Assembly (NCBI GenBank): GCA_039707465.1 | Contig: CM077644.1 | Location: 96,577,375 to 96,641,374 of the forward strand | DNA: 64,000 nucleotides | Direction: 5' to 3' | Source of the DNA: Rhabdophis nuchalis | Taxonomy: Eukaryota > Chordata > Lepidosauria > Squamata > Natricidae | Part shown: piece after piece, positions 882 to 62,445 of the stretch | Layout: every line of letters starts with the position of its first letter | How positions within the stretch are numbered: position 1 is the stretch's first letter | The notes under the pieces: model-generated | Seen by the model: only the letters and a program-made list of their open reading frames with translations | Told to the model about the DNA's origin: nothing | The model's database searches: none | Position numbers and translations under genes: made by a program

Positions 882-920
882 GGTTCAAATCCTCAAAGCG
901 ACATCCGTATTACAATTCAG
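882..920 (+). CDS. E1: internal exon, 13 codons
   Basis: Acceptor ttcttctacag, donor gtaact. Encodes [13 protein letters not shown] in phase 0. It is the first exon I can place and lacks a start codon, so it is internal. It is not repeat-like, so support is the splice sites, the length of 39 and the shared CAG ending. Confidence 0.6.
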
Positions 921-3900: not shown

Positions 3901-6900
3901 CTTCTAGCATATAGCCATGCGGCCACGTGACTAAGAAACTGTCTTAAGACTATGCTGGCTCCCTTGGACGAGAAACGTAGATGAGTACTACACCCTAGAA
4001 TCAAACACGACTGGTCAGGGACAACTTTACATATACTTTACGTATGCTTTAGAAGTACTATTTGACTTCTAATCATTCCATCATTTCATTCCCAAATAAC
4101 TGTTTCTTTCTTTCTTTTTTTATAAACAGACATCTTCTTCCTACAACAGCCACGCCTGTAAATTGGTAAATATATTCTCAAAATGGAAATTGTTTTTACT
4201 CCTTTGGGGTCATTTGGTGTCTGATATACACTATAAAATGTGTACCTTTTGGGCACCTTTTTTTTTAAAGTGTTGTTTTAATATACAAAAAGGCATGGAA
4301 AGAGAAAAACGCAGAAAGAGAAACAGTAAATTCAGCCTTATTTTTAACATATCACAAAACGTTGACCATGGAAAATCAGTCGCATCATTATGTTGATTTC
4401 GAGTTGGCTTTAAATGGTCAATGTTTTAACCATGGAGAAGAATGTAAATGCAACAATGCAAAACAATGCACATAAGATTGAAAATCTTTCTAGTAGTGAA
4501 GAATTGTTGTTTTGGTTCCTGTCAATATTCAGTACATCCATAATAATTTTCATGTCAATGTTCCAAGCTTTGGATCTATTATTCCAAAATATATTTCCAC
4601 TTTCATAACAGACTATACAGTCATCTTCATCTCAGAGTGGTGGTTCTTCTGTCTCTCAGGTAAACTTTCTTTTGTCATACATGAGTCCTGTTGACTTCAC
4701 TTGGATTTTTTTGGGGAGGGGGAGGAACGCTATTTCTGATGATAAATATCAATGTGAGAAATCTGGAGGATTTATTTATATAGGTATGGCAGCAGCCTCC
4801 AACCTTTTGGGCACTGTGGAGAAGTAGGGATGCGGTGGCTCAGTGGCTAAGACGCTGAGCTTGTTGATCAGAAAGTTCAGCGGTTTGAATCCCTAGTGTT
4901 GCGTAACAAAGTGAGTCCCAGCTTCTGCCAGTTCGAAAGCATGTAAAAAATGGAAGTAGAAAAATAGGGACTACCTTTGGTGGAAAGGTAACGGTGTTCC
5001 CTGTGTCTTCAGTGTTTAGTCATGCCAGCCACATGACCATGGAGATGTCTTTGGATAGCGCTGGCTCTTCGGCTTTGGAACGGAGATGAGCACCGCCCCC
5101 TAGAGTCAAGAACAACTAGCACATATGTGCAAGGGGAACCTTTACCTCTGTGGAAAAATATTTTTCTGTGGACCGCAGGGGCATCCCACAGATGGGGTTT
5201 TGCTTGTTTGCACCAACTGGTTGCTGGCATGTCTTGTACTGGTGCGGTCCATGGACCGGGGTTTAGGGACCCTTGGCATATGGCATGTCATACACAGAGT
5301 ATGAAAATATATATTTTGATCTTACTAATCTATTACCTAGATTAGTAAAACACAATCAAATATAAATGTTAAAAAGATCTACATTCAAATATCAAGCCAT
5401 CTAACCATTGAAGCACAACATTGTTTATATTGATAAAATCAGATGCTGGACCAGTATATGCCCTCAGCTTAAAGCCAGCCACAATGTGATCTACAGTTTG
5501 AGTATTATTCCTCACTATATACTTCTGAAAATCTCTGAAACTTTTAAAGTCTGGTGGGAGGAACCTGTGGTACAGTTACTTCCGATAAACATTTACTCCC
5601 TGTTCTGGGAGGGCGAAGATAAATGTGGAAAGGAATTCTTGATGAAAGCATCCCATGCATTATTTCTTCATAGAAGCAAACTTCTCCACCATCTACATAT
5701 AACGTCCTTCTTGAACAACAATTTTGATATTTCCTATTTGCTTAATTTTTTTTTTTTACTTTTAGCCATTGGAAAGCTAATTTTCTCCTCCTCTGTCTTT
5801 GTATTGGATTTGTAGATGTTAGGATTATTTTAAGAAATATGTTCCATTTCATACAAAAATGATGTCTTTAGTAGTACTATTATTATTATTTTCATTAGGG
5901 TGAAACGATTATAGTCAGTGAAGGTAGACCTTCTTCTGGCAGTAGTGGAACCTCGATTATAGTTGATGGCGGGAGACCCTCTACTGGATCATCATCTACA
6001 TTTGGCAACAGTGGATCTGTTGTATCAACTGGCCGTAATCCTTGTGGTCAGGTTAGTATCCTTCCTCACAAATGCAACCTGCCAAAGTGTTTCTTATGTT
6101 CTCCTTGTGAAGAGAGGACTTTCCACCCTACCCTACTTTATACAAAATACAATTTTAATGTAATAGCTGCAGTTCAGTTTGACATTGGGAAAGCTTCAGG
6201 AGTGGGTTCCTGCCAGTTCTACCCTCTTCTATAGAAGAGGTTCCACAAATCTACAGTGCCATTTAGAACCTGTTCCAGCTCCCTCCCCCCACCCATCCAC
6301 ACATCATAAAGATGAAGAGCGAGAGGAGGAATTCTGGGAGTTGAAGTGCACAAGGTTTTTTTTTTCTAAAGGGTTAGGGGTGCAAAGGTCTTGTAACTTG
6401 ACAGCTTTAAGACTTGAGTGCTTCAAATGCCAGAGTTCCTGAGCCAACATGACTGGAGGAGGAATTCTGGGAGTTGAAGTCCACAAGATTTAGATTTATT
6501 GACTTTACATGCCGCCCTTCTCCCAAAGGACTCAGGGCGGCGTTCAACATAAGAGACATATAGTACAAAAGTTAAAAAAGTATTAAATAAGAAATCCAAT
6601 AAGCAATAAATTAATAGACATTATAAAATAAATTAAAATTGGAATTAAAATTAATACGTTATTTTGTTCAGGCCAGGCCGCCTTGCTGGAAGCTTTTTAG
6701 GGTGCGCCAGAAGGAAGGGAGGTCAGGAATTATGCGAAGCTCCGGGGGTAGCTCATTCCAAAGGGAAGGCACTCCTACAGAGAAGGCTTTCTCCCTGGGG
6801 ATCGCCAGCCGACACTGTCTGGCTGACGGCACCCTTAGGAGGCCAACTCTGTGGGATTGTACTGGACAATGGGAGGCTACTGGTGGCAGTAGGTAGTATC

Positions 6901-30890: not shown

Positions 30891-31503
30891 CCTACCTACC
30901 TACCTACCTACCTACCTACCTACCTACCTACCTACCTATCTATCTATCTATCTATCTCTAATAGTAATCCTAATATTATCTTCTATTTCCTATTAAATCC
31001 CTTCAGGATGAAATAACTTGTTCAACCTGGTTTAATTCCAGTCCCTAAATTGGCACTAGATTAGATTAACAGAAAATAACATTTAAGAACAGACGTTTTA
31101 TAATAAAACATTACCCAGTGTTTGATTTCTTACAGCAAAGGTGAAACTAATTGTTTGCATTTTTACAGAGTCGATGTATATGTCCTAATACACAGGTAAT
31201 CTATTTATTTTTCATGCTGCTCCTTCCTGTCTCAATAGCATTGTCGCAATTCATAACAAAATATCTTGTGCCATGTGCTTGCTTTTGCTTACCACATGTC
31301 AAGTGTTTGCTTTATTGTTTTTTAACGAGATCCCTTTGCAAGCCAATGTACATGCAAGCAAGTAAACAACTTTTGAACAGATAATCCACTAAATAAGAGA
31401 CCTATAAAAATCAACTTTGCTGTTTAGAAGATGACTTGGGAGTGATCACGGAACCTTTCACAAGCTACAGTTTTATACTAATTTTGTTTGCAAGAGACAC
31501 TCA

Positions 31504-42976: not shown

Positions 42977-43007
<31 letters not shown>

Positions 43008-44385
43008 CAGCAGCAGCTCTTATGGGAGCCAGGTAAAAACAATTTTATAACTTTATTCATGTATAGCTATAGATACCTCCTACAATGTCTTTACACACAC
43101 ACACACACACACACACGAAGTCCTCGCTTACCAATCACAATTGGTACTGGCAACCCTGTTGCACAGCACCACAGACACTATCATGTGATGATATATCGCG
43201 AAATATCATGATAGACTAATCACCTGCTTCCATTATTGCATGAATCACAAGGTGGCTAAGTGAGATATCACATGATTGTGAGTTGCAATTTCACTTCTAC
43301 GTTCTCCATTGCTTCTACTTGTTGGAACCTAGTTGTGAAGCTCGGAAATGGCAATCACCTGACCACAGGACAGTTGTAAATGTGCATGGGCTGCAAAGTG
43401 CCTGAATGGCAATTCTATTGTAATAACATAAAATCAGATGTTTTTGTTCACCCTATCTTTCCTCCTAAAGATAGAAGGTAACTTTGCATTTTATTAACGT
43501 AGTTATTTTGTAATTTTGTACAGTATTTAGTATTTAGTACAGTATTTCCTTACAGGGCAGACCACATAATGTCGACCAATATAGCAGCCAGGTAAAAATT
43601 ATATTATAATTTGGACATATTTTAATATTTGCCATGGTTATTTATATTGCACATCCTGTATATTTTAGAATATATTTGTATTCCAAGCATAATATATATC
43701 CAAATACATTTTGGAACGTAAATGAAGATTTTAGACCTCTGAATACATAGAGTAGTTTTGGGTTTCAAAATAATTGAATTATTTTATAATAAGCATCTTC
43801 TTACAGGGAGGATCATATAGCAATAGCAGCAGCAGCAGCAGCAGCAGCCATTATGGCAGCCAGGTAACAAAGTACTTTATACTGTAATATTTTAATAATG
43901 ATACAGGATATTTGTGATATTTTTATTGATCTATACATAGAGATAAGCATATAAAATATTTGTCAAGGATATGTACAATATACATACATACATACACATA
44001 TACACACATACATACATACATACTATAAAAACAAATTTGTCTTACTTCTGCTTCTGAGGCCTACTAGGCCCAAAATGGGGCGTGAGGGGAGGACCCCCCC
44101 CCCAGCCCATTTTTGCTCCCAGGGAGGTGGGGGAAACCAAGTGCTGCCTGTCACGCCCTCTGGCCACGCCCACCATGGCCATGACCATCCAGCCGGTCAC
44201 TAGGGCACAGAACTGGTTGTTAAATTATTTAAATCCCACCACTGACTTAGGGTAAATAAAATAAAATACATTTCGCTTACGCTATTTCTACTCCTGAATG
44301 TAAAAAAGCAGTGTTGTGTTTTATTAAAGGGATAATTTTATCATTAGTAAGCATTTTCTTACAGGGAGGATCACATAGCAGCAGT

Positions 44386-44418
<33 letters not shown>

Positions 44419-47400
44419 AGCCATTATGAAAATCAGGTAAAAATTACCTGATTTTAACATTAACATTGTGTGTGTATAATTATCTAAATCGGGGGTTCCC
44501 AAACTTGGCAACTTTAAGACTTGTGGACTTCAACTCCCAGAATTCTCCAGCCAGCATAGAATTCTGGGAGTTGAAGTCCACAAGTCTTAAAGTTGCCAAG
44601 TTTGGGAACCCCTGATCTAAATATAGATATATAAGGTATATATCTTTTTTTTTTAATTTTTTTATCTAAAGATACAGACAAAACACATGTATCTAAAATG
44701 TTTGCCATGGACATTATTTCTGTTCCTGAATACAGTATAATCAGCAGCTTTGTGCTTTATTCAGGTAATTATTTTACAATTAAGAAATAATGGCAGCAAC
44801 AGCCAATACAGTTAGCGCTTAACATACAACAGTTCATTTAGTGATTGTTCAAAGTTACAATGGCACTGAAAAAGTGACTTATGACTGTTTTCCATACTTA
44901 TAACCGTTGCAGCATCCCCATGTTCATGTGTTCAACATTCAGATGCTTGACAAGTAGTTCATATATATGGCTGTTGCTGTGTCTCAAGGTTGTGTGATCC
45001 CCTTTTGCAACCTCCTCACAAGCGAGTTTCTTTCCGCCAGAAACTCAAGACCTATTTTTTCCAACAGGCCGGCCTGGCCTAACTCTACCTAGCCTTTAGC
45101 CTGAAATTAAATTGTTTTAATTGGTTTTTAAGGGAAATAGTTTTAATTTATTGTAAATTTTAGCACAGGGTTAATAATTTAATTTGATTTTAAATTTTGT
45201 ACACTGTCATGTTTATATATGTTTTTTAATTTCCTGTGCACCGCCCCGAGTCCCTTTTGGGAAAGGGAGCGGTATATAAGTTTAATAAATGAATGAAATG
45301 AATGAATGAAATGAAGTCAATGGGAAAACCAGATTCACTTAACAACTTGGTTATTACTTATCAATTGCAGTAATTCACTTAACAGCTGTAGCAAGTAAGG
45401 TCATAAAATGGGGCAAAATTTACTTAACAAATGTCTCACTTATCAACAGATATTTTGGGCTCAATTATGGTTGTAGGTCAAGGACTACCTGTACAAAAGT
45501 TAGGTAAAAACTGTTTTTTGCAGTGTTTCTATCTGCACCCTTGTCTACAATGTGTATGTAATATTTGCCAGTGGCTCTCTGGGATTATAAGTTAGGACAC
45601 TGAAAATAAAATAACTTAACAAAGTTCATCTTATGTCTATTCCTGAGTAAAGAAAGTATCGTTGTGCTTTATTAAGGTAAATATTTTATAATTAATCGGT
45701 ATATTCTACACAGGGAATATCATATGGTGGCAATAGCAACCAATATGGAGGCCAGGTAATTTATCATTATTTATAGTAGATACGTAACATTTAATAGAGA
45801 TATTACATGTATATATACATAGGGAAGAAAATGTTAAAAAGTGCTCTACTTAGTTTTGCTCCTAGAAACAAAATACAAATTACACTGAAACCTGAATTGG
45901 GGAAAGATAAAGAGTAAAAGTTCATTAATTAAAATAGATTCTAAATTTGTGATATCAAAGTATATGAGAAATGGCTATCCCATTTGATATCTGGCCTTGT
46001 TTTGTTGGCCTTGTTGGTTCATTGTTGAAGTAGAACTGCTTTTTAAAGGCATATTGATATGTCCCAATTATTATCCACTTTGATATTCCTCTTTTTGAAA
46101 GATTAAACTTAATGAATTACTGATGGAGCAAATTGCTTTCTTGTTGACACCTCTGTGCTTTCCTTCTCTGGATGTGTTCCTGCAGGAGCTAGTCAACCAT
46201 TTCTCTGGGATACTTGGATGACAAAATGGCCCTTTTAATTCTATAAGTATGTGAAAGAAAATGGAAGGGAGATTAACTATGGCAATTCACACTGGTAAAA
46301 GCCTTGTCTAGCCTGATATCTAAAATCCACAGTTTTGCTTCTTTTGTTTGCCACTTTTATTAGACACAACAGGAGGGGATATTTTCAACTCATATCCTTG
46401 TAGATCTTTCTTTGGGGGGGGGGGTGAAGCACATGATCACATGGTCTGACCTCTCTCCCAGCATGCATGCATTACCCTCCAATAGGGATAAGTTGGCTGT
46501 GCTTGTGACTTCTTGTCATCACTATGATCTTCCTCATTCAAAATTTGCTTATTAAAAGTAAGAAGGAAAGGTACAACTAGCTAAAAAGAACAGGGATTCA
46601 CCCATGCTGTTGTGCCCATCATTTTTTTACTATTTGACATCCCTTTAGGGCAGGGGTGTCCAAACTTGGGAACTTTAAGACTTGTGGACTTCAACTTCCA
46701 GAATTCCCCAGCCAGCTATGCTGGCTGGGGAATTCTGGGAGTTGAAGTCCACAAGTCTTAAAGTTCCCAAGTTTGGACACCCCTGCTTTAAGGGCATCCC
46801 AGTTGTCATCAAAACCTTTCTTAATAAAGAATGTTTATTTTGTTTGCCTCTTCCTCATCCTGGCAAACATAGCCCTTTCACCCAACAGTTCAAGATGTCT
46901 GTTTCCACGCTAATGTATTAAACAATCAATTTCCTCAATGAGCTATAATTTGTAATAACTGTTTTTTTAATAACTTTTTTTTTAAAACAGGGTGAATCTG
47001 ACAATAGCGGCAGCCAATATGGAAAGGTAAAATTCCTGGAATAGTTTTACCTTTAAAGGGAAGCATCATTTGGAATGCTGAACTCTCTATCAACAGCATG
47101 CTTGCAGTCAAAACTCAGATGTCACTCTTTCCTTTCGCTTTTCTCCCTTAGTCCTTGAAATTTATTGCAACAATAAATATAAGTTCAAACTGGAGTACAA
47201 AAGTCTGCTACTGATCTTGAAAATCTGTACTTCCTTTGATTATTCAGTTCCAATTACGTAACAGTCAGTCTGTCACTTTATCTCCGTCATTGGCCAGCAA
47301 AACAGACCTTTGAAAAAAAAGGCTCACATTTTACTTGCTGAAAATCAATGCAGGATATACACCACATAAATTAGCTACAATAAAACCAGCTACATAGCAA

Positions 47401-50400: not shown

Positions 50401-53400
50401 ACTTCTATTGTTACAGGGTTCCCAATCAGCTAGTGACCAATATGGTAATGGTAAAGGGGACACCAGCCAATATGTTGAACATGGTGGCAGTAGCCAATAT
50501 GATGGACAAGGAAGCCAGCATGGTGGCCATAGCCAATATAGTGGTGGACAAGGAAGCTCATATAGTAGCAGCAGTCAATATGGTGGTGGACAAGGAAGCC
50601 AATATGGTGGCGGACAAGGAAGCTCATATGGTGGCAGTAACCAGTATGGTGAACAAGGAAGCCAGTATGCAGCTGAACAAGGAGCAGCAGCATATAGCAG
50701 CATCAGCCAATATGATGGACAAGGACGCCAGCATGATGGTGGACATGTAAGTCTATATGGTGGTGGAGAAGGAAGTCAATATGGTAGCGGACAAGAAAGC
50801 TCATATGGTGGCAGTAAACAACAAGGAAGCCAATATGGTGGTGGACAAGGAATATAGCAGCATCAGCCAATATGATGGACAAGGAAGTCCATACAGGAGT
50901 GGACAAGGAAGCCAGCATGATGGGTGGATAAGGAAGTATATATGGTGGTGGAGAAGGAAGTCAGTATTCCTTCTCCACCACCATATATGGCGCGAGCATT
51001 CAATATGGTAATGGACAAGGAAGCAAATATAGTGGACAAGAATATTTTTAGGAGGATTTTACATTTTACGGCAATGTCAGCCTTTGATCATAGAATAAAA
51101 TTAAGAAAGATAATAAATATATGTAAGTCCTGCAAAGAGAGACTGAATTGAGAATGCTTAGATTTGGAGGGGGGGGAGAAGGTTGAGGAATGCAATGAGA
51201 GGACCCTTCAAATACTTGACAAAGCTGTGTACCTGGTTTCATTGTTCTGAGTGCAGAATAATGGATTTCAGTTACAGAACCAAGATTTCATTAAAAATGT
51301 TCCTAACAGTAAGAGTAATACAGTAATAGAACACATTAATTGATAACGTTTCAGAAAGGTGTGGTGGTTTGTTCTTCACTGGATGTGTTTAAGCAACACA
51401 ACATAAGAGATTCACTAAGAATGGAGCCAACATCAGTGAACGTTAGCATGGTGTAATCACTAAGAACTAGAGCCAGGAAGACCCAAATTCAAGTCTACCC
51501 TAAGCTATGGAAATTCATTAGGCAACTTTCTGCCAATCATTACACTTTTAGGCAAACCTCTGAAATTTGTTGCTGTGGGAAATAATGGAAGTGCGATATT
51601 GACAGGTTTAAGGCGATTTAAAGGAGCAATATGAATTTGATAAATAAATAATGGCAATGATTCTTTTTTTTTTATAACAGCCATTGTTTTAATAATGCAT
51701 TTCCTACTTAGAGGGTATCACTGCCAAAACAGTGAAGTCTTATTTTAAATGACTATTCGGGAAGAAGCAGTATTCATTATATAGAAATGTGCATGAAATA
51801 AGAAAGACTACTTTCTGGCAATTGCCTGGCATGATGTTTTATGATGAGCAGAAGTGCTTTATAGACTGTATAAATCACCCTTTCTGAGCCATCATAATTT
51901 TAATGACAGGTCATAAATTGAGGACTATCTATAGCAGGGGTGTCAAACACGATTTCATTGAGGGCCACATGAGGCTTGTGTTTGACCTTGGGGGGCAGGG
52001 TGGTTGTAGCCAAGGTGGTCGTGGCCAGTTCAATGTTATTTTTGTGTCGGTGCTTGTGGTGGCCTGAGTGCTCTGCCAGAGATAACGGGCTCCTGAGCTC
52101 CGTTTTTGGCTGCAATGGCCTCCTGCAACCCAGCAAAAATGGAGCTCAGGAGGGATGCACGCAGCCCTCCCTAGCTCCGTTTTCACCGGCAGAGGCATTG
52201 TGGGGCAATCCTTTGCTGTTTCCATGGCAGCCCCACAGGCCAGATCTAAGCACCCCGCAGGCCACATCCGGTACCCAGGCCTTGAGTTTGACAACCCTGA
52301 TCTATAGATAGGGTGACATTTTTTCCTTGCTATGGAATACTATATTATGGCTGCAAGGAGAGAGAAAACCTATAGTGAAGAATAGATGGGCTCATAAGAT
52401 TAACTCTCTTCTCCAGCGTTCTAGTCTCAGTTCAAATTAATCGCTTTTAGAAAAAAGTAAACAACAGCAAGAGCTTCTTTTCGATGACATGTCTAGCGGG
52501 GCCTCAATTTCTCTTTACATAGAAATAGATCACAATCTTTTCCAGTCAGGTAATAAGTCAGATGGAAGTACTCAACATAAAGGTAGGCAGGTAATTTTTC
52601 TCTCAAGCATTAGCACATATTTATAGAAATGTTGGAACTTGTGTTGAAATTATTTTCTTTTTCTAATGGCCTTTTTTGCCTGCACAGGGTTCCCGGCTTG
52701 GAAGTACTCAGTTTGCTGGTAATGGAAGAGGGAAGCAACTGAGTGAACAAGTAAGGACTTCTCAAATAGATGTATTTGGTCTGCACTAGTTAATTGATCA
52801 TTTCCTCTATTTAGAAATTGGTATAGCCTGTAATATCCTTAGAGTTAAGAAAGAAAATAGAGTGTTCTGATACTTTTGTATTTGTTATATCTTAGGGAGA
52901 ATGTAGGCACTGATCTTGAGTATATTCAAGTTTACAGTCCTGTTTTTGATATTACATTCAATTGAACTTTGAGAAATCCAATATAGTTTTGTACTGTAAT
53001 AATGTGTGTTGATCACATACATTCAAAATGACTATGCAGTATCTTTCCCCCAAGTGTTTTTTAATATAAAGATTGGGTTGCTTATTTCTATAGAGTTTCT
53101 TTTATTCAGAATGCAAATGATAACTCAGCTTTCTCAATGATTAATTTTTGCATTGGCTTAGACATTAATAGTATAAAAAGAACCTATGAAAATGTATATG
53201 AGCCAGCAGACCCAATTCAAACTGAAAGTATCATAACTTCTAAATATTGCTATGTATCATTACCACCATAGAGCTCTTGAATTGAATTATTTGTTGTAAA
53301 GTTAATACATAATCTTTGGCTAAGGTACTTTGCCAATTACAAGTTCTACTGAATTCAGTAGGATTTCTTTCCCAGTTAAGTATACTTAGGATTGCTGATT

Positions 53401-56400: not shown

Positions 56401-57015
56401 CAGTCGAGTCGCGGGGGCAGGGACACAGGTACTGGCCCAAGCTCCCTTTGGAACCTTTCCGGGTCCATCAGGCGCCTGGGGCGGAACCATCTTGAGCTCT
56501 CAGGTTCCGCCTCCCTGCGGTGGGGTGTGACGATTGGAAAGTCCAGCCGGAGGAGAGCATGATCTGTCCATGACAAGGGTGTGATGACTATGTAGATGTA
56601 GATGTTGCCTTTTCGTTAATCAAAGATGCCAATTTAACCATCTGTGGAAATTCCATCATCTTCACCAACTTCCCATTTTAAGCATAATCTTGCTGCAATT
56701 GTCCTATACAAAAACAAAATTCCATGCCTTTTCCCCCCAGCTATTTTATCTGTTAGTCCCAAAAGAAAAGTCTTTAGCCTAGAGATTTTTCTTTGAGAGT
56801 TGGGTTCAAGCTGTGGATATGAGAATATGAGAAATAACAAGTTTCATAAAAAGTAGTAAACTGTTGTCCTTTGTTTCAGTCCTAAAATGTGATTTCCCTT
56901 TCCCCCCCCTCTATAGAGTGCTGTTGGGAAGCAGCCTGCCTCAGGTCTGGTGCTTTTCAGCATTCTGAGCACCTTTGCTGTCTCTTCTTCAACTGTATCT
57001 AAATGGATTATATGA
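882..57015 (+). CDS. Multi-exon gene for a Gly/Ser/Gln/Tyr-rich repeat protein (overall span, 43 exons E1-E43)
   Basis: Overall entry; exons follow separately. Each exon sits between a polypyrimidine-AG acceptor and a GTAA/GTAAG-type donor. All 42 internal exons are multiples of 3 and all introns are phase 0. Joined, they give 755 codons without a stop, ending in TGA. The 5' end (start codon, signal peptide) is missing, so the gene starts upstream. Ten Cys occur, in E2, E3, E5, E6, E18, E19, E24 (two) and E37 (two). Most exons end in Gln (CAG before the donor). The repeat module is [11 protein letters not shown]. Phase-0 mini-exons are known from SCPP and fibrillar collagen genes, but there is no Gly-X-Y periodicity. 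Composition resembles secreted epidermal or extracellular-matrix low-complexity proteins. I infer an extracellular structural role; there is no catalytic domain. Function and name are unknown. Some exons may be missed or alternatively spliced. Confidence 0.85.
1756..1966 (+). repeat. tRNA-derived SINE
   Basis: Pol III A-box-like TGGTCCAGTGG and B-box-like AGTTCTAGTCC about 60 bp apart, the squamate-type body ending in Ctctctctcagcc, and a T-rich stretch at the end. Confidence 0.7.
2195..2575 (-). mobile_element. TIR element, family A (full-length)
   Basis: Body with gagcccaaaatttatgttgctaag, atcacatgacc and cactaaatgaactgt motifs, ending in gaggactacctata. Copies in this window share termini of the type AGGTAGTCCTCGACTTA and its inverse. 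A non-autonomous DNA element by structure. Confidence 0.7.
2620..2649 (+). CDS. E2: Cys-bearing mini-exon
   Basis: Acceptor gtttccctag, donor gtaagc. Encodes [10 protein letters not shown]. The SGQ start recurs in E10 and E27. Confidence 0.6.
3700..4033 (+). repeat. tRNA-derived SINE, degenerate copy
   Basis: Same family as 4826-5147 and 30048-30412: gatggctcaggggttaa near the 5' end and tagaatcaaacacgactgg near the 3' end. Confidence 0.6.
4130..4165 (+). CDS. E3: Cys-bearing mini-exon
   Basis: Long T/C tract then acag, donor gtaaat. Encodes [12 protein letters not shown], with one Cys in the same near-terminal position as in E2. Confidence 0.6.
4612..4659 (+). CDS. E4: Ser/Gln-rich exon
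   Basis: Acceptor tttcataacag, donor gtaaac. Encodes [16 protein letters not shown]. Confidence 0.7.
4790..5275 (+). mobile_element. hAT-type MITE interrupted by a SINE
   Basis: The left part reads cctccaaccttttgggcac and the right part reads ggtccatggaccgggg...gggaccctt. Both match the ends of the intact element at 40914-41228. The SINE at 4826-5147 sits between them. Confidence 0.65.
4826..5147 (+). repeat. tRNA-derived SINE (snake-type), nested
   Basis: A box tggctcagtgg, B box ggtttgaatcc, body ending agcacatatgtgcaagggg. Inserted in a hAT-type MITE. Confidence 0.75.
5276..5898. other. Intron, nothing recognised
   Basis: AT-rich sequence before E5. A 135-codon frame at 5408-5815 has no domain, repeat likeness or splice support. 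Confidence 0.4.
5899..6051 (+). CDS. E5: 51-codon exon with an internal duplication
   Basis: Acceptor ttcattag, donor gttagt. Starts [16 protein letters not shown] and repeats the module about 18 residues later as [15 protein letters not shown]; ends STGRNPCGQ. The consensus (T/S)IIV(S/D)(E/G)GRPS(S/T)GSS shows an internal duplication. The ending NPCGQ resembles NPCKP of E6. Confidence 0.8.
6366..6450 (+). repeat. Direct-repeat copy 1 flanking an L2 fragment
   Basis: About 85 bp (ctaaagggttagg ... gagccaacat) recurs at 7429-7504 with few differences. Confidence 0.8.
6487..7372 (-). mobile_element. L2-type LINE, 3' end
   Basis: Minus-strand frames at 7365-6916 and 7021-6668 encode the C-terminal part of an L2-like ORF2 (motifs [32 protein letters not shown]). 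The 3' UTR reads ccctgagtcctttgg in sense. It is frameshifted. Confidence 0.82.
7429..7504 (+). repeat. Direct-repeat copy 2 flanking an L2 fragment
   Basis: Partner of 6366-6450. Confidence 0.8.
7505..7745 (+). repeat. TIR element fragment and minisatellite
   Basis: A family A fragment (ttgctaagcaagtgttgttaag) runs into about four tandem 28-bp units of cccagtcacatggctggcaa type, then ends acccaccactgg like other snake MITE ends. Confidence 0.7.
7746..8233. other. Intron, nothing recognised
   Basis: AT-rich non-coding sequence before E6. The 8353-8093 minus frame is a chance frame. Confidence 0.4.
8234..8266 (+). CDS. E6: Cys-bearing mini-exon
   Basis: Acceptor cctccacag, donor gtaaga. Encodes [14 protein letters not shown] matches the end of E5. 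Confidence 0.75.
8267..9262. other. Intron, nothing recognised
   Basis: AT-rich, no clear repeat or exon. Confidence 0.4.
9263..9612 (-). mobile_element. L2-type LINE 3' end
   Basis: In sense: ORF2 end ([13 protein letters not shown]), then cgccccgagtcccttcgggg and a (AAT/ATT)n tail. Confidence 0.8.
9613..10509. other. Intron, nothing recognised
   Basis: No exon or clear repeat. A weak frame at 9856-10103 has no support. Confidence 0.35.
10510..10548 (+). CDS. E7: Gly/Ser/Gln mini-exon
   Basis: Acceptor tcccatag, donor gtaagg. Encodes [13 protein letters not shown]. Confidence 0.8.
10622..10717. repeat. (AAT)n microsatellite, about 32 units
   Basis: Uninterrupted AAT run ending 13 nt before the E8 acceptor. 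It makes artificial poly-Ile/poly-Leu frames. Confidence 0.97.
10731..10763 (+). CDS. E8: Gly/Ser/Tyr mini-exon beside a long AAT microsatellite
   Basis: Acceptor cttttctttgcag begins directly after about 96 bp of (AAT)n; donor gtaaaa. Encodes [11 protein letters not shown]. The E7-E8 intron is only 182 bp, half of it microsatellite. Confidence 0.85.
10865..11222 (+). mobile_element. LINE 3' end relic (RT C-terminus)
   Basis: The frame at 10977-11222 contains [15 protein letters not shown]. In an adjacent frame the end reads [18 protein letters not shown] and stops. This resembles the extreme C-terminus of non-LTR ORF2 proteins. The AAT tail follows. Confidence 0.65.
11222..11303. repeat. 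(AAT)n microsatellite shared by two LINE tails
   Basis: About 27 AAT units between a plus-strand LINE end and a minus-strand L2 end. Confidence 0.95.
11304..11760 (-). mobile_element. L2-type LINE 3' end
   Basis: Minus frame 11701-11489 encodes an L2 ORF2 end ([20 protein letters not shown]). The 3' UTR carries ccccgcctcgagtcccttc in sense. Confidence 0.82.
12029..12079 (+). CDS. E9: block A exon
   Basis: Acceptor ttttctgtccag, donor gtaaaa. Encodes [17 protein letters not shown], the first full QYGQ module. Confidence 0.88.
12093..12180 (-). mobile_element. CR1-type LINE 3' end
   Basis: (ATACA)n then agcagagttggaagggacc, identical in design to 28888-29000. Confidence 0.75.
12207..12620 (+). 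mobile_element. Putative LTR or retroelement fragment
   Basis: Starts TGTTGTGGCCC and has a TTTAAAAG box and a Glu/Ser-rich frame (12212-12451) like that of the minus-strand copy at 21590-21860. The ends are not firmly placed. Confidence 0.45.
12890..12934 (+). CDS. E10: block A exon
   Basis: Acceptor tttctgcacag, donor gtaaac. Encodes [15 protein letters not shown]. Confidence 0.9.
13102..13525. mobile_element. hAT-type MITE
   Basis: Ends cagggatggtgaacc and ggttagccatcactg are inverted repeats. The interior is GC-rich with palindromic stretches. Confidence 0.65.
13610..14020 (-). pseudogene. Intronless relic of a multi-pass membrane protein gene
   Basis: Two minus-strand reading frames, 14005-13817 and 13813-13613, read as one protein fragment interrupted by an in-frame TGA. 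The first contains [20 protein letters not shown]; the second contains [15 protein letters not shown] and ends at a stop after EGRVNKVKW. There are hydrophobic segments with Trp/Phe and a basic tail, and no introns. It has no transposon motif that I know. I infer a processed pseudogene but cannot name the parent. It lies in the E10-E11 intron, antisense to the host gene. Confidence 0.55.
14072..14092. repeat. (GT)n microsatellite
   Basis: About 10 GT units. Confidence 0.9.
14297..14332 (+). CDS. E11: block A exon, short form
   Basis: Acceptor ttctgtgcag, donor gtaaaa. Encodes [12 protein letters not shown]. It lacks the leading xGQ triplet of the 45-bp forms, as does E14. Confidence 0.9.
14405..14560 (-). 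mobile_element. L2-type LINE 3' fragment
   Basis: TTTAT-rich tail then atcccacccttctcc and ggacccagggcggcgcac. Confidence 0.7.
14718..14844. mobile_element. hAT-type MITE with 8-bp TSD
   Basis: Flanked by TCCCACCT at 14710-14717 and 14845-14852. The interior matches the element at 41237-41370 (gggtatcaaac ... gtttcacacccctg). Paralogous introns lack it. Confidence 0.82.
14853..15012 (+). mobile_element. LINE 3' tail in the duplicated intron unit
   Basis: tttattgcattgtaagc...gtcatataaa then TTAA/TAAA repeats. Also at 16060-16215 and 16492-16648, because the intron was duplicated. Confidence 0.6.
15039..15083 (+). CDS. E12: block A exon
   Basis: Acceptor ttttctgtacag, donor gtaaaa. Encodes [15 protein letters not shown]. 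Confidence 0.92.
15158..15279. mobile_element. Foldback element
   Basis: Near-perfect palindrome of about 122 bp. Ends cagggggtctgcaaag and ctttgcagacccctg; core cttcaactcccagaattc and its inverse. Confidence 0.88.
15603..15647 (+). CDS. E13: block A exon
   Basis: Acceptor tttgctatgcag, donor gtaaaa. Encodes [15 protein letters not shown]. Confidence 0.9.
15819..15854 (+). CDS. E14: block A exon, short form
   Basis: Acceptor tttttttgacag, donor gtaaat. Encodes [12 protein letters not shown]. Its downstream intron is almost identical to that of E15. Confidence 0.92.
15855..16674 (+). repeat. Two 432-bp tandem exon-intron units
   Basis: The introns after E14 and E15 are almost identical over their full length (atgatacgtgtagaaaatg ... 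ttttgttcag), giving a 432-bp period between E15 and E16. Confidence 0.93.
16243..16287 (+). CDS. E15: block A exon in the young tandem array
   Basis: Acceptor tcttttgttcag, donor gtaaaa. Encodes [15 protein letters not shown]. It lies 432 bp upstream of E16, with near-identical introns. Confidence 0.93.
16675..16719 (+). CDS. E16: block A exon in the young tandem array
   Basis: Acceptor tcttttgttcag, donor gtaaaa. Encodes [15 protein letters not shown]. Confidence 0.93.
16882..16948. repeat. (TGAA)n microsatellite
   Basis: Expanded from the aaataaat tail in the other intron copies. Confidence 0.92.
16974..17018 (+). CDS. E17: last block A exon
   Basis: Acceptor tcttttgttcag, donor gtaaaa. 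Encodes the same 15 residues as E12 ([15 protein letters not shown]). The intron before it is a shortened copy in which a GAAT microsatellite has expanded. Confidence 0.93.
17158..17183 (+). pseudogene. Dead exon copy after E17
   Basis: The upstream intron sequence matches the introns before E13-E17, but the acceptor AG reads accggg. A 26-nt stretch GGTGGAGCAGC... precedes an intact gtaaac donor. The length is not a multiple of 3. Confidence 0.5.
17285..17412. repeat. (ATCC)n/(TCTA)n microsatellite
   Basis: Interrupted ATCC units change into TCTA units. Confidence 0.9.
17615..17659 (+). CDS. E18: Cys-bearing exon
   Basis: Acceptor atttccttggcag, donor gtaagt. Encodes [15 protein letters not shown] and leaves the QYGQ repeat. 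Confidence 0.8.
17800..18010 (+). repeat. SINE-like repeat
   Basis: gacacaatggcctggaggtgaagaca 5' region and aggaagggcatccggc core. The inverse of the same family lies at 33349-33530. Confidence 0.55.
18011..18937. other. Intron, nothing recognised
   Basis: No exon or clear repeat before E19. The minus frame 18508-18323 is unsupported. Confidence 0.35.
18938..18979 (+). CDS. E19: Cys/Arg-rich exon with a furin-type site
   Basis: Acceptor tttttactttaacag, donor gtaagt. Encodes [18 protein letters not shown] fits the proprotein-convertase consensus R-X-K/R-R. A foldback element lies about 17 bp past the donor. Confidence 0.78.
18996..19116. mobile_element. Foldback element near the E19 donor
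   Basis: Arms ggtctccaacctttgcaac and its inverse, core gacttcagttcccagaatt. It begins about 17 bp after E19. Confidence 0.88.
19220..19261 (+). CDS. E20: cationic amphipathic exon ending in a second dibasic site
   Basis: Acceptor ttctctcccacag, donor gtatgt. Encodes [14 protein letters not shown], with hydrophobic residues spaced 3-4 apart and five basic residues. It ends in RGKR, another convertase-like site. No other exon has this composition. Confidence 0.78.
19262..20580. other. Intron, nothing recognised
   Basis: No supported exon. A spliceable but frame-breaking 23-nt candidate is recorded under rejected items. Confidence 0.35.
20581..20815 (+). repeat. Sauria-type SINE
   Basis: Diagnostic start gagctgcggtggcgcagtgg, then tgctgactgccag, aggttgactcaaccttccat and a tail with cctaagtgctagtgctat. 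Confidence 0.9.
20816..21589. other. Intron, nothing recognised
   Basis: No exon or named repeat seen. Confidence 0.3.
21590..21862 (-). mobile_element. Putative LTR fragment
   Basis: In sense it starts TGTTGTGGTCTGC and carries a Glu/Ser-rich frame (21820-21569), as does 12207-12620. Confidence 0.45.
22002..22043 (+). CDS. E21: acidic/Tyr linker exon
   Basis: Acceptor ctatctttatttcag, donor gtaaga. Encodes [14 protein letters not shown]. Confidence 0.75.
22145..22350 (-). repeat. LINE 3'-UTR-like fragment
   Basis: T-rich start, then attgaaaaagttttac and C/T-rich text; in sense it ends in an A-run. Family not resolved. Confidence 0.4.
22640..25600 (+). mobile_element. Decayed Ty3/gypsy-type retroelement
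   Basis: Two related segments (22804-22922 and 25441-25557: caattaaagcaacttat, then gtgaagctctggcag) look like LTR ends about 2.6 kb apart. Between them, fragments resemble gypsy pol: near 23960-24060 an RT-like stretch ([14 protein letters not shown]), and near 24210-24300 an integrase-like stretch ([15 protein letters not shown]). Many stops and frameshifts; not functional. Confidence 0.6.
23211..23436. mobile_element. Mariner/Tigger-like MITE
   Basis: Inverted ends cagtaatccctcgttattcg and ataacgagagattactg, flanked by TA at 23209-23210 and 23437-23438. Nested in the gypsy relic. Confidence 0.8.
25601..26990. other. Intron, little recognised
   Basis: Contains an AAGGG-type purine run (26496-26540). 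No supported exon. Confidence 0.35.
26991..27029 (+). CDS. E22: acidic linker exon
   Basis: Acceptor gaccttttacag, donor gtaagg. Encodes [13 protein letters not shown]. It follows a 4.9-kb intron holding a decayed gypsy element. Confidence 0.72.
27541..27573 (+). CDS. E23: linker exon
   Basis: Acceptor atctccatatag, donor gttaat (weaker). Encodes [11 protein letters not shown]; the DG start matches E22. Confidence 0.65.
27622..27924 (+). mobile_element. TIR element, family A (degenerate)
   Basis: agtgactgttcaaagttaaaac, gattcacttaacaa, and the end aatcaaggactatctgta. Confidence 0.7.
28131..28546 (+). mobile_element. Possible solo LTR
   Basis: Starts TGTTAGGGG and ends CCTAACA, as LTRs do. 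No clear target duplication was found. Confidence 0.3.
28888..29460 (-). mobile_element. CR1-type LINE 3' end with (ATACA)n tail
   Basis: The minus strand encodes a CR1 ORF2 end in two frames: [27 protein letters not shown], then [13 protein letters not shown]. The 3' tail is about 16 ATACA units. Confidence 0.88.
29461..30047. other. Intron, nothing recognised
   Basis: No exon or repeat recognised. Confidence 0.35.
30048..30412 (+). repeat. tRNA-derived SINE (snake-type)
   Basis: gtggctcagtggctaaaatgc, ggcagttcagcagttcgaat, and the end gtcgggaacgactagttcat; nearly full length. Confidence 0.85.
30807..30957. repeat. (CTAT)n-(CCTA)n compound microsatellite
   Basis: About 150 bp: CTAT units, then CCTA units, then CTAT. 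Confidence 0.97.
31169..31195 (+). CDS. E24: 9-codon exon with a CxC motif
   Basis: Acceptor gcatttttacag, donor gtaatc. Encodes SRCICPNTQ. It is the shortest exon placed and is echoed by E37 (RCYC). Confidence 0.65.
31508..31540. repeat. (TA)n microsatellite
   Basis: About 16 TA units. Confidence 0.95.
31641..32958. mobile_element. Long TIR element with GGTA/GAGA-rich interior
   Basis: Left end tactgtatttttcagagtat, right end inverse of taccgtatttttcggagtat. Both ends carry the agtataagacgcacc motif. The interior has purine-rich repeats (31716-32220) and a nested foldback. Confidence 0.75.
32346..32480. mobile_element. Foldback element, right end truncated
   Basis: caggggttcccaaacg start and gacttcaattcccaaaattc core with its inverse. 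Nested in the 31641-32958 element. Confidence 0.8.
33278..33306. repeat. (AAAC)n microsatellite
   Basis: About seven AAAC units. Confidence 0.9.
33349..33531 (-). repeat. SINE-like repeat
   Basis: In sense: gtgcggtggtgaagacgctt, then cattcggaaggttgaga. Same family as 17800-18010. It abuts a foldback element. Confidence 0.55.
33532..33689. mobile_element. Foldback element with exact 8-bp TSD
   Basis: Flanked by CTCTAAAT at 33524-33531 and 33690-33697. Arms caggggtctccaacctttgc and inverse; the centre is expanded by an extra tgctggctggag unit. Confidence 0.93.
34308..34440 (-). mobile_element. LINE 3' tail
   Basis: tttattaaatttatttatta then cttcccatctcacccaaagc, typical of antisense LINE ends. 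Confidence 0.5.
34563..34697. mobile_element. Foldback element with exact 8-bp TSD
   Basis: Flanked by TACTAGAT at 34555-34562 and 34698-34705. Confidence 0.93.
35288..35332 (+). CDS. E25: linker exon returning to Gly/Ser
   Basis: Acceptor attattttcttcag, donor gtaaaa. Encodes [15 protein letters not shown]. Confidence 0.8.
35349..35495. mobile_element. TIR element, family A, short form
   Basis: Starts ataggtagtcctcgacttat and ends gaggactacctgtag, only about 147 bp. Confidence 0.85.
35878..35904 (+). pseudogene. Dead exon copy between E25 and E26
   Basis: TATGGCAGCAG-AAT-AATATGGATAG resembles the block A module, but GGACAG has become GGATAG (an in-frame TAG) and the donor gt has become ct. 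Confidence 0.6.
35906..36735. other. Intron, nothing recognised
   Basis: No exon or clear repeat before E26. Confidence 0.35.
36736..36777 (+). CDS. E26: first block B exon
   Basis: Acceptor ttttcttccatag, donor gtaaaa. Encodes [14 protein letters not shown]. Confidence 0.88.
37613..37740. mobile_element. Foldback element
   Basis: caggggttcccaaatttggc start and inverse end; core cttcaactcccagaattctc. Confidence 0.88.
38034..38069 (+). CDS. E27: block B exon
   Basis: Acceptor gttttctgttcag, donor gtaaaa. Encodes [12 protein letters not shown], with Tyr to Phe in the final module. Confidence 0.88.
38354..38388. repeat. (ATT)n microsatellite
   Basis: About 11 units. Confidence 0.9.
38464..38675 (-). 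repeat. Sauria-type SINE
   Basis: Inverse of the family: agcaatagtaattagactta tail, caatctgggtcctcatttta body, and end ctaaccactgtgccacc. Confidence 0.88.
38836..39263. mobile_element. TIR element, family A (full-length)
   Basis: caggcagtcttcgacttac start, gtcatgtgatcaaaattcag interior, agtcaagaactacctgtag end. Confidence 0.85.
39568..39680. mobile_element. TIR element fragments
   Basis: A family A fragment (caggtaatcctcactaaat) and a ccggttcggaccggttcg MITE fragment. Confidence 0.55.
39796..39825 (+). CDS. E28: block B exon
   Basis: Acceptor atttctttacag, donor gtaaaa. Encodes [10 protein letters not shown]. Confidence 0.88.
39890..40040. repeat. Local inverted duplication
   Basis: The left arm with gttctgctcctgaat is repeated inverted as attcaggagcagaac. 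Partial identity extends about 70 bp each way. Confidence 0.75.
40221..40257 (+). pseudogene. Dead exon copy after E28
   Basis: GGAGCAACCAATACGACAG followed by ctacaaac aligns to GGAGCAGCAATCAATATGGACAG plus gtaaaac. The donor gt is ct, the upstream codons are decayed, and there is no good acceptor. Confidence 0.6.
40711..40905. mobile_element. hAT-type MITE 1 of a stack of three
   Basis: Ends cagtggttctcaacc and ggttgagaaccactg. Flanked by CTCTAGAG at 40703-40710 and 40906-40913. Confidence 0.95.
40914..41228. mobile_element. hAT-type MITE 2 of a stack of three
   Basis: Ends caggggtccccaacc and ggttggggacccctg. Flanked by CTCTAGAG at 40906-40913 and 41229-41236. Confidence 0.95.
41237..41370. 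mobile_element. hAT-type MITE 3 of a stack of three
   Basis: Ends catgagtgtcaaac and gtttgacacgcctg. Flanked by CTCTAGAG at 41229-41236 and 41371-41378. Confidence 0.93.
41531..41942. mobile_element. TIR element, family A (full-length)
   Basis: gcagatagtccttgacttac start and aaattaaacactacctgta end; gatcaaaattcagatgtttg interior. Confidence 0.85.
42500..42717. mobile_element. MITE-like GC-rich repeat
   Basis: ggtgggttgctcttggttcg start, cacacgtgtg palindromes inside, end aaacccaccactgattt. Confidence 0.55.
42748..42783 (+). pseudogene. Dead exon copy before E29
   Basis: tttacaa then GGAGAATCATAAGGTGG aligns to tttacag GGAGGATCATATGGTGG of E28. The acceptor G is lost, TAT has become TAA and the donor is absent. 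Confidence 0.7.
42955..43032 (+). CDS. E29: poly-Ser exon
   Basis: Acceptor catttttttaaag, donor gtaaaa. Encodes GGSHGGGG, then 14 Ser, then YGSQ. The run is an AGC/AGT microsatellite in frame. Confidence 0.88.
43091..43116. repeat. (CA)n microsatellite
   Basis: About 13 CA units running into a family A fragment (43115-43400). Confidence 0.9.
43117..43400. mobile_element. TIR element, family A (degenerate)
   Basis: gaagtcctcgcttaccaatc start; interior gtgaatcac-like and gatcac-like motifs weakly kept. Confidence 0.5.
43556..43591 (+). CDS. E30: block B exon, diverged
   Basis: Acceptor tatttccttacag, donor gtaaaa. Encodes [12 protein letters not shown]. Confidence 0.82.
43807..43863 (+). 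CDS. E31: poly-Ser exon
   Basis: Acceptor catcttcttacag, donor gtaaca. Encodes GGSYSN, eight Ser, then HYGSQ. Confidence 0.88.
43979..44025. repeat. (TACA)n microsatellite
   Basis: Interrupted TACA units. Confidence 0.85.
44060..44250. mobile_element. MITE-like fragment
   Basis: GC-rich body with gccacgcccaccatggcc and end aaatcccaccactgac, as in other MITE ends here. Confidence 0.5.
44365..44436 (+). CDS. E32: poly-Ser/Asn exon
   Basis: Acceptor cattttcttacag, donor gtaaaa. 24 codons: GGSH, nine Ser, then N-SSS-N-S and HYENQ. NSS is a possible N-glycosylation sequon. Confidence 0.87.
44490..44614. mobile_element. Foldback element with exact 8-bp TSD
   Basis: Flanked by ATCTAAAT at 44482-44489 and 44615-44622. 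Arms gggttcccaaacttggcaac and inverse. Confidence 0.93.
44791..44810 (+). pseudogene. Dead exon copy broken by a TIR element insertion
   Basis: The intron before it matches the one before E33. GGCAGCAACAGCCAATAC survives, the acceptor and 5' half are gone, and a TIR element carrying an L2 fragment begins at once (about 44808-45495). A gtaaaaac donor-like remnant follows at about 45513. Confidence 0.55.
44808..45495. mobile_element. TIR element, family A, carrying a nested L2 3' end
   Basis: The left part (cagttagcgcttaacatac) and right part (ggtcaaggactacctgtac) belong to one element; the L2 end at about 45020-45310 interrupts it. Confidence 0.8.
45020..45310 (+). mobile_element. L2-type LINE 3' end, nested
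   Basis: ttccgccagaaactcaagac (ORF2 end), caccgccccgagtccctttt, and a tail with (AATG)n. Confidence 0.82.
45714..45755 (+). CDS. E33: block B exon
   Basis: Acceptor tattctacacag, donor gtaatt. Encodes [14 protein letters not shown]. Confidence 0.86.
45760..46645. other. Intron, nothing recognised
   Basis: No exon or clear repeat; a short G-run at 46415-46425. Confidence 0.35.
46651..46785. mobile_element. Foldback element with near-exact TSD
   Basis: Flanked by CTTTAGGG (46643-46650) and CTTTAAGGG (46786-46794). Arms caggggtgtccaaacttgg and inverse. Confidence 0.9.
46991..47026 (+). CDS. E34: block B exon
   Basis: Acceptor tttttttaaaacag, donor gtaaaa. Encodes [12 protein letters not shown] and ends in Lys, not Gln. 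Confidence 0.83.
47027..47770. other. Intron, nothing recognised
   Basis: No exon or clear repeat. Confidence 0.35.
47771..47897. mobile_element. Foldback element, degenerate
   Basis: cttctcaaactttgg and ccaaggttgggaaacactgg ends with an inverted core. Confidence 0.6.
48025..48063 (+). CDS. E35: Ser/Gly/Gln exon
   Basis: Acceptor catattttacag, donor gtaaga. Encodes [16 protein letters not shown] is a possible sequon. Confidence 0.82.
48192..48230 (+). CDS. E36: Ser/Gly/Gln exon
   Basis: Acceptor tttcctttgtag, donor gtaaga. Encodes [13 protein letters not shown] and follows E35 after a 128-bp intron. Confidence 0.82.
48231..49505. other. Intron, nothing recognised
   Basis: AT-rich, no supported exon between E36 and E37. 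Confidence 0.35.
49506..49535 (+). CDS. E37: second CxC mini-exon
   Basis: Acceptor ctgttttcttaacag, donor gtaagc. Encodes [14 protein letters not shown] parallels RCIC of E24. Confidence 0.72.
49536..50275. other. Intron, nothing recognised
   Basis: The minus frame 50098-49868 has no domain that I can name. Confidence 0.3.
50276..50320 (+). CDS. E38: Gln/Tyr/Gly exon
   Basis: Acceptor ttctttaatag, donor gtaagg. Encodes [15 protein letters not shown]. Confidence 0.85.
50417..50746 (+). CDS. E39: long 110-codon QYGG repeat exon
   Basis: Acceptor tctattgttacag; donor gtaagt at 50747, a full consensus. Encodes tandem variants of QYGGGQGS and GSSYGGS, from [12 protein letters not shown] to RQHDGGH. 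The frame stays open past the donor to a TAG at 50855-50857, so an unspliced form would end about 37 residues later. I chose the donor because E40-E43 continue the phase-0 pattern and the repeat past the TAG is frameshifted. This is the largest exon and the core of the C-terminal third. Confidence 0.85.
50747..51052 (+). pseudogene. Decayed 3' extension of the E39 repeat
   Basis: QYGG-type DNA repeats continue past the E39 donor but with frameshifts and stops. Relative to 50670-50720, 8 bp (gcagcagc) are missing after GGA at about 50849, which creates TAG at 50855-50857. It could be retained as an alternative 3' end. Confidence 0.75.
50938..50988. repeat. Perfect 22-bp hairpin in the decayed repeat
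   Basis: Arms 50938-50959 and 50967-50988 are perfect inverse copies around a 7-nt spacer. Confidence 0.95.
51060..51926. other. Intron, little recognised
   Basis: A LINE-tail-like aataaataa at 51640-51655; no exon seen. Confidence 0.35.
51935..52299. mobile_element. hAT-type MITE with exact 8-bp TSD
   Basis: Flanked by ATCTATAG at 51927-51934 and 52300-52307. Ends caggggtgtcaaac and gtttgacaaccctg. Confidence 0.93.
52546..52590 (+). CDS. E40: Ser/Lys/Gly exon
   Basis: Acceptor atcttttccag, donor gtaatt. Encodes [15 protein letters not shown]. An internal gtaggc could be an earlier donor but would break the frame. It lies 97 bp before E41. Confidence 0.62.
52688..52750 (+). CDS. E41: Gly/Gln exon, 21 codons
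   Basis: Acceptor ttttgcctgcacag, donor gtaagg. Starts [13 protein letters not shown] and ends GKQLSEQ. Confidence 0.82.
52751..53746. other. Intron, nothing recognised
   Basis: No supported exon between E41 and E42. Confidence 0.35.
53747..53776 (+). CDS. E42: His/Gln/Ser mini-exon
   Basis: Acceptor ttttatccacag, donor gtaagt. Encodes [10 protein letters not shown]. Confidence 0.75.
53966..54351. mobile_element. MITE with exact 8-bp TSD
   Basis: Flanked by GTTCATAC at 53958-53965 and 54352-54359. Ends cagaggtgaaatc and gcatttcatccctg; contains a tagctagaaagcagga hairpin. Confidence 0.92.
54870..56590 (-). mobile_element. L2-type LINE with reverse transcriptase domain
   Basis: The minus strand encodes an ORF2 core in two frames. 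56384-55551 has [25 protein letters not shown] and [11 protein letters not shown]. 55466-54876 has [13 protein letters not shown], the catalytic YADDTQLY and NPAKTKWLW. The YADD box and layout fit the L2/CR1 group. It is cut at both ends and frameshifted near 55550, so it is not active as it stands. Antisense to the host gene in its last intron. Confidence 0.9.
56917..57015 (+). CDS. E43: terminal coding exon with hydrophobic C-terminus
   Basis: Very strong C/T tract and ctatag acceptor. Phase 0 gives 32 residues from [10 protein letters not shown] to SKWII, then TGA. The stretch [12 protein letters not shown] is hydrophobic and unlike the rest of the protein. It could be a GPI-attachment signal or simply a divergent tail. 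The 3.1-kb intron before it holds a minus-strand L2 LINE. Confidence 0.7.
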   Translation, partial: SAVGKQPASGLVLFSILSTFAVSSSTVSKWII

Positions 57016-62440: not shown

Positions 62441-62445
62441 TAAGG

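Follow-up and report, generated by a model that had tools for sequence, protein, structure and literature searches.

A predicted squamate reeler-domain gene with many phase-0 mini-exons in Rhabdophis nuchalis

The window analysed here is a 64,000-nucleotide stretch of the Rhabdophis nuchalis genome (C2:96577375-96641374 of the 1.92-Gb assembly), and 100 kb on each side of it were also examined. Upstream coordinates are negative numbers counted from window base 1, with position 0 included. On the + strand, between 882 and 57015, we placed 42 internal exons, all of them multiples of three and in phase 0, plus a terminal exon (Table 1). This is the exon design that the original prediction had described. 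The joined length matches it as well, since the 43 exons give 755 residues and a stop, i.e. 756 codons. The exons measure 27-330 nt, with 40 of the 43 within 27-78 nt, and the introns between them 96-4947 nt (median 1235).

Acceptors and donors were scored with vertebrate splice consensus matrices. Open acceptor-donor pairs of 21-100 nt with a length divisible by three numbered 36 on the + strand and one on the - strand, compared with a mean of 2.35 in 20 shuffles under a first-order Markov model. Stricter splice sites left 28 such pairs on the + strand, none on the - strand and an average of 0.7 in the shuffles. The relaxed scan produced 55 open rows divisible by three; of these, 38 served as exons, and the other 17 were left out because they overlapped as alternatives, looked like repeats or deviated in composition. 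The terminal exon and four internal ones (15603, 18938, 27541 and 42955) were located by eye before being scored. Acceptor scores were weak at 42955 (-0.6), 52546 (0.7) and 15603 (0.9), as was the donor score at 27541 (0.3).

Table 1. Exons and candidate exons of the gene within the window (window coordinates). 'Scan' stands for the splice-site scan, Pantherophis for model P0034 and Anolis for the A. carolinensis models; ratios are identical residues.
Feature	Position	Strand	Basis and matches
exon 16 of 58, 13 codons	882..920	+	scan; Pantherophis 12/13
exon, 10 codons	2620..2649	+	scan; Pantherophis 10/10
exon, 12 codons	4130..4165	+	scan; Pantherophis 11/12, Anolis 10/12
exon, 16 codons	4612..4659	+	scan; Pantherophis 16/16
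exon, 51 codons, ends NPCGQ	5899..6051	+	scan; Pantherophis 46/51, Anolis 32/51; matched in genome back-search
exon, 11 codons	8234..8266	+	scan; Pantherophis 9/11
exon, 13 codons	10510..10548	+	scan; Pantherophis 13/13
exon, 11 codons	10731..10763	+	scan; Pantherophis 10/11
repeat exon, 17 codons	12029..12079	+	scan
repeat exon, 15 codons	12890..12934	+	scan
repeat exon, 12 codons	14297..14332	+	scan
repeat exon, 15 codons	15039..15083	+	scan
repeat exon, 15 codons	15603..15647	+	by eye, weak acceptor 0.9
repeat exon, 12 codons, inside 432-bp exon+intron tandem repeat	15819..15854	+	scan
repeat exon, 15 codons, inside 432-bp exon+intron tandem repeat	16243..16287	+	scan
repeat exon, 15 codons	16675..16719	+	scan
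repeat exon, 15 codons	16974..17018	+	scan
exon, 15 codons	17615..17659	+	scan; Pantherophis 15/15
exon, 14 codons, furin-type site RRKR	18938..18979	+	by eye; Pantherophis 14/14; Anolis NCRGKR at same place
exon, 14 codons, short basic segment, second furin-type site RGKR at end	19220..19261	+	scan; Pantherophis 13/14; Anolis KIREKR
exon, 14 codons	22002..22043	+	scan; Pantherophis 12/14
exon, 13 codons	26991..27029	+	scan; Pantherophis 11/12 aligned of 13
possible exon, 11 codons	27541..27573	+	by eye, weak donor; unmatched in three relatives
exon SRCICPNTQ	31169..31195	+	scan; Pantherophis 7/9
exon, 15 codons	35288..35332	+	scan; Pantherophis 13/15
exon, 14 codons	36736..36777	+	scan; Pantherophis 12/14
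exon, 12 codons	38034..38069	+	scan; Pantherophis 11/12
exon, 10 codons	39796..39825	+	scan; Pantherophis 10/10
exon GGSHGGGG(S)n YGSQ, Ser-codon expansion	42955..43032	+	by eye, weak acceptor; unmatched in three relatives
exon, 12 codons	43556..43591	+	scan; unmatched in three relatives
exon GGSYSN(S)nHYGSQ	43807..43863	+	scan; Pantherophis 17/17 aligned of 19
exon GGSH(S)n...SHYENQ	44365..44436	+	scan; Pantherophis 16/19 aligned of 24
exon, 14 codons	45714..45755	+	scan; unmatched in three relatives
exon, 12 codons	46991..47026	+	scan; Anolis P0036 8/12
exon, 13 codons	48025..48063	+	scan; Anolis P0036 7/13, below 60% matching rule
exon, 13 codons	48192..48230	+	scan; Anolis P0036 8/13
exon, 10 codons	49506..49535	+	scan; Pantherophis 8/10
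exon, 15 codons	50276..50320	+	scan; Pantherophis 13/15
large repeat exon, 110 codons, donor CAT/gtaagt	50417..50746	+	scan; Pantherophis 90/108; matched in genome back-search
possible alternative 3' end	50417..51117	+	read-through of large exon to TAG 50855-50857; AATAAA at 51094, 51112
possible exon, 15 codons	52546..52590	+	scan, weak acceptor; unmatched in three relatives
exon, 21 codons	52688..52750	+	scan; Pantherophis 17/21
exon, 10 codons	53747..53776	+	scan; Pantherophis 9/10
terminal coding exon, 32 residues + stop, hydrophobic tail	56917..57015	+	by eye; Pantherophis 26/32, Anolis P0037 17/28 aligned; matched in genome back-search

The 5' start of the gene lies 18.1 kb to the left of the window. 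Alignment of relatives' proteins to the DNA located a reeler head of four exons there (-18099 to -14038), and the joined exons matched Pfam Reeler (PF02014) with 85 bits and an E value of 8.7e-24 over profile positions 1-131 (curated cut-off 21). The single head exons were absent from a genome-wide exon-by-exon Reeler scan, in which the first exon of the neighbouring paralogue was present. Between the head and the window we placed 11 mini-exons (-13180 to -1011). One of these, the 18-nt exon RETYSS (-4527 to -4510), was kept in the model because Pantherophis P0034 and Anolis carry this exon too. The whole model comprises 58 exons, which join without an internal stop, and encodes 1,071 aa over 75,115 bases (about 75.1 kb). 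Its post-reeler part consists of 53 phase-0 mini-exons (11 upstream and 42 in the window) and the terminal exon. Exons of 51 nt or less make up 47 of the 58, and 55 of the 57 introns are in phase 0, both exceptions lying within the reeler head. On this reading, a squamate gene with a reeler domain and a micro-exon-gene build has three quarters of its length, the 3' part, in the window; we hold this to be probable as part of the whole explanation given below, secretion, anchoring, cleavage and cassette splicing included. A single 130-kb gene with the reeler exons at -73 kb as its 5' end was considered and dropped when the relatives revealed the second head at -18 kb. A piece with RKRR at -22650 was tried as the counterpart of the furin-site exon and had no real match in 39 relative proteins.

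The reeler exons at -73 kb belong to a tandem paralogue (-73004 to about -59350; C2:96504370-96518024) with its own reeler head (Pfam Reeler E 4.8e-30). It is a shorter reeler gene with similar mini-exons, and its Pantherophis counterpart is 'ferric-chelate reductase 1-like isoform X2' of 298 aa. The two genes share an exon type (DGVASVYNKYGCRD versus GGTASVYNKYGCGD). The start of the paralogue's fifth exon is provisional because no AG precedes it, and its last exon was searched for at the locus and not found. One locus of the window gene itself was found in the genome, beside this paralogue. Two more Reeler matches lie 4.4 Mb away (C2:92199091-92204885), at a distinct locus that looks like the true FRRS1 gene. 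Downstream of the window gene, exons at 130-139 kb presumably belong to MFSD14A, as judged from their sequence; Pfam matched this candidate weakly to MFS, below the cut-off. Beyond it, outside the window and on the - strand, lies SASS6 (150852-151166; PDB sequence match E 1e-27). A CpG island at 62401-63400 of the window probably serves as promoter for MFSD14A, which would be the next gene. The long intron before the last exon contains a repeat element, with 54921-55964 being 85% identical over 1,049 bases to -35928..-34880 in the opposite orientation.

We searched for relatives of the gene among predicted proteins, under length limits that put far shorter or longer proteins outside the counts. 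With residues 1-420 of the window gene as query, scoring was confined to the 7,987 candidates that had the most words in common, and five proteins emerged. The first was Pantherophis guttatus 'hornerin-like' (P0034; 1,048 aa, 82% identity). The others were an 'uncharacterized' protein of Euleptes, a 'dentin sialophosphoprotein-like' protein of Hemicordylus, and 'hornerin isoform X27' (P0036) and 'pro-resilin isoform X16' (P0037) of Anolis carolinensis. Anolis residues 1-270 as query found 5 of 1,019 candidates and added an Anolis sagrei model, while the paralogue head found 33 proteins among 145 candidates, snakes first. In a tree of 18 reeler heads, midpoint-rooted for drawing only, the window gene grouped with Pantherophis, Anolis carolinensis and the second Euleptes head (100/99). 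The Hemicordylus model fell with the short squamate genes in a separate group (98/95), and the birds were nearer to the short genes.

The reeler head and the repeat exons might also be two neighbouring transcripts, one from a short upstream reeler gene and one from a repeat gene of its own in the window. In several snakes the upstream paralogue does appear as a short model, of about 300 aa, and the Euleptes model fuses two reeler heads, i.e. the gene and its neighbour. However, a reeler head of its own belongs to the window gene, and it is this very head that P0034 joins to the exons, which makes two transcripts very improbable. The original prediction's picture of a giant squamate gene with symmetric phase-0 mini-exons for a G/S/Q/Y protein stands. 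The gene is already on record, in models from Pantherophis and Anolis and in the fused Euleptes model.

The exon peptides were then compared with the relatives by global alignment, an exon counting as matched at 60% identity or more. P0034 matched 43 of the 54 post-reeler exons in order, compared with a mean of 12.45 and a maximum of 16 when the exon order was shuffled (20 shuffles). Each Anolis model matched 24 of the 54 (9.3 and 9.55 with shuffled order), and 48 were matched by at least one of the three relatives, P0034 and the two Anolis models. The six exons without a counterpart in these three start at 27541, 42955, 43556, 45714, 48025 and 52546. With the low-complexity filter on, P0034 still aligned to many exons of the locus, in order. 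A genome back-search with P0034, in which 44 of 391 candidates were scored, gave eight matches at E <=0.01, seven of them in the window gene and one in the paralogue. The two Anolis models, both of them predictions, differ from each other by large blocks of repeat modules (100 aa and 212 aa), by a single insertion of 6 aa and at the 3' end; different assemblies or annotations may be their source. For the Pantherophis stretch GGSYSQ... no corresponding exon was found at the locus of the window gene. In an intron, window positions 43332-43419 match a 37-residue stretch of the Pantherophis model, with a stop and a frame change, and this seems to be a repeat that became part of an exon in Pantherophis, or else an annotation error.

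In the databases searched, the gene is represented only by predicted models, under names that appear misleading. Hornerin and pro-resilin look wrong as names since Pfam finds only Reeler, as it did in all the models submitted (P0001, P0009, P0024, P0034 and P0036-P0039); P0034 scored 84.8 bits. A literature search, largely outside subscription journals, returned no paper on this gene among the matches listed.

Next, we looked at the features of the protein. Its start, MGRFHFFALLLSGVLISGVLS, is signal-like when read by eye. AlphaFold2 on the relative P0034 (17 sequences) gave a model that is poor overall (mean pLDDT 40, pTM 0.36, 888 of 1,048 residues below 50). Its reeler region is folded, with most ten-residue blocks at 60-90, and a helix is predicted at 1026-1039. 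When the P0034 model was submitted to Foldseek, all six matches at E <=0.001 were F-spondin reeler domains, the best being 2zot (E 5.8e-05, probability 1.00, TM 0.54 by target, rmsd 6.1). Searched by sequence against the PDB, P0034 had nine weak matches in the repeat region, by name eight collagen or collagen-type chains and one transporter. The tail exon is alike in P0034 and Anolis X16 (P0037), and Anolis X27 ends without a hydrophobic tail. Judged by eye, the hydrophobic tail is perhaps a GPI signal or a membrane tail; a lysine near the tail end, which is unusual for a GPI signal, is present in the predicted tail. Since the exon at 50417 can be read through to the stop at 50855 and X27 is tail-less, tail-less forms are plausible. 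The extracellular location that had been suggested from the window alone agrees with the signal-like start, the reeler domain and the hydrophobic tail.

Between the two repeat regions, the protein carries the furin-type sites RRKR and RGKR in both snakes and RGKR and REKR in Anolis. The segment between the sites is basic in both snakes, while its sequence is not conserved to Anolis. Its hydrophobic moment is ordinary in the snake (0.105 of shuffles reach the value) and high in Anolis (0.006 of shuffles). This segment bears on the idea of a host-defence reeler protein, like those of insects and shrimp, in which the head or the furin-bounded segment would act on microbes and the repeats would be the tether. 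Reeler proteins are named in antibacterial immunity in a shrimp study (PMC12113285), and two short-gene relatives (P0006, P0011) are called 'putative defense protein'. The basic charge of the segment, its position between two cleavage motifs and the Anolis moment would also suit such a role. Nevertheless, these 'defense' names are automatic, and the divergence of the segment in Anolis and its ordinary moment in the snake argue against this function, which we consider unlikely.

The cores of the nine repeat exons are 84% alike and the adjoining downstream introns 36%, in an ungapped comparison in which indels exaggerate the gap. The pN/pS of the repeat exons is 0.46, from pairs that are not independent. 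A 432-bp unit of exon and intron is repeated in tandem at 15816-16817, with the duplicate pair identical at 407 of 430 aligned bases, and we read this as repeat exons that arose recently. Four stretches that lack usable splice sites match the repeat exon weakly, at 17152-17189, 35877-35901, 42741-42789 and 44790-44809 (E 0.07-1.6), and are possible dead exons. In a decaying gene the frame would be open by chance. The Ser-codon expansions and these few weak matches would be compatible with decay, but the 58 exons form one uninterrupted frame and track a relative of 1,048 aa over its length, so that decay is barely credible.

The last residue is Gln in 38 of the 53 mini-exons, with CAG as the codon in 35 of those, and the first residue is Gly or Ser in 33 of the 53. 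Since phase-0 introns together with the consensus AG/G...CAG/gt favour Gly and Gln at the seams, part of the Gly/Gln richness may stem from the exon edges. CAG is the donor consensus itself, and the composition of the protein may partly be an imprint of splicing. Six splicing motifs were counted beside the mini-exons. RBFOX was not enriched, and pyrimidine motifs were not clearly enriched. Only GTATTT stood out, with a raw count of 14 just downstream of mini-exons versus 5.4 expected (introns from -13145 to 57015), and this excess may stem from tandem intron copies.

These observations can also be read as an ordinary matrix or mucus-like protein that is constitutively spliced; its mini-exons would be no more than what tandem exon duplication left behind, and almost every one would always be included. 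The 432-bp tandem repeat shows that exon duplication took place, the Pantherophis entry is a single model with most exons, and RBFOX-type motifs lack enrichment. On the other side stand the isoform numbers X27 and X16 in Anolis and the block differences between these predicted models. We regard constitutive splicing as a serious possibility, but on balance we lean away from it.

We favour a modular protein of the cell surface or matrix that is secreted and perhaps anchored by its tail. The reeler domain would be its folded head, and the disordered G/S/Q/Y modules would form a body that is flexible and might be cross-linkable. The protein would be held at the cell surface by a tail, either of GPI type or a membrane tail, or released when splicing or polyadenylation leaves out the last exon. 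Since nearly all exons are phase-0 cassettes, splicing could lengthen, shorten or re-compose the body with the frame intact. If furin-type cleavage occurred at RRKR and RGKR, it would split the protein into two parts and release some 19 residues between them. The features fit a modular protein whose length could be set by exon choice, and the gene could make many protein length variants. Taken as a whole, a secreted reeler protein that is anchored or released, cassette-spliced and furin-cleaved seems to us the best explanation, with a probability of roughly 0.7 as judged from sequence.

A bolder proposal, which we make tentatively and with more doubt than belief, is that of a vertebrate micro-exon gene, a combinatorial splicing system that squamates would have made out of a reeler gene. 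By means of more than 50 interchangeable phase-0 cassettes it would adjust how long, how charged and how anchored an epithelial surface polymer is, and a furin-bounded peptide would be released. The exon edges (AG/G and CAG/gt) would spell much of the Gly and Gln, and the exons would be born by tandem duplication of exon and intron. In a published survey (PMC4317164), 94% of mammalian coding exons are longer than 51 nt; in this one gene, 47 of 58 are at or below that length. Should the cassettes really be skipped, schistosome micro-exon genes would have a vertebrate counterpart here, which would offer a natural test-bed for how dozens of tiny exons are spliced. Furthermore, a squamate gene family is masked by automatic names (hornerin, pro-resilin, dentin sialophosphoprotein, ferric-chelate reductase), and this could mislead transcriptome studies.

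By their reeler head and the order of their exon peptides, P0034, X27 and X16 represent the same gene as the one in the window, and P0034 and P0037 share its tail too. They differ from it in module number and at the 3' end, and six exons of the Rhabdophis gene are unmatched. The snake 'ferric-chelate reductase 1-like' models and the avian 'FRRS1 reductase, partial' and 'putative defense protein 3' also have a reeler followed by S/G/Q segments, as here. However, these models are short (134-416 aa, from a search whose length limits excluded long ones, and 653 aa for P0039) and form a separate clade. FRRS1 (ferric-chelate reductase 1) has an N-terminal reeler, a DOMON and a cytochrome b561 domain. 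The reeler domain is what it has in common with the family of the window gene; Pfam found no DOMON or cytochrome b561 in P0034, P0036 and P0037, and an identity as ferric-chelate reductase was rejected. Hornerin and other S100 fused-type proteins have an N-terminal S100 domain and G/S/Q-rich repeats. Such repeats are present here too, but spread over tens of exons, and this identity was also rejected, with no S100 found by Pfam in the same three models or in the gene's own first 183 residues. Pro-resilin has a chitin-binding R&R domain, which Pfam likewise did not find in P0034, P0036 and P0037, and this identity was rejected too. Dermokine had been the first idea and was abandoned after the reeler head was found. 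SCPP, elastin, sciellin and semenogelin were also considered.

The micro-exon genes (MEGs) of schistosomes are described (PMC10526429) as having a signal peptide, short exons that are mostly multiples of three, introns of up to about 5 kb and splicing diversity. According to the same source, their exons are mostly 15 bp long and the longest protein has 189 residues (PMC10526429). Unlike them, the window gene encodes a reeler domain, its exons are larger and its product is 1,071 aa long. What the two appear to share, as an analogy of architecture rather than by descent, is the same build of short, symmetric phase-0 exons behind a signal-like start.
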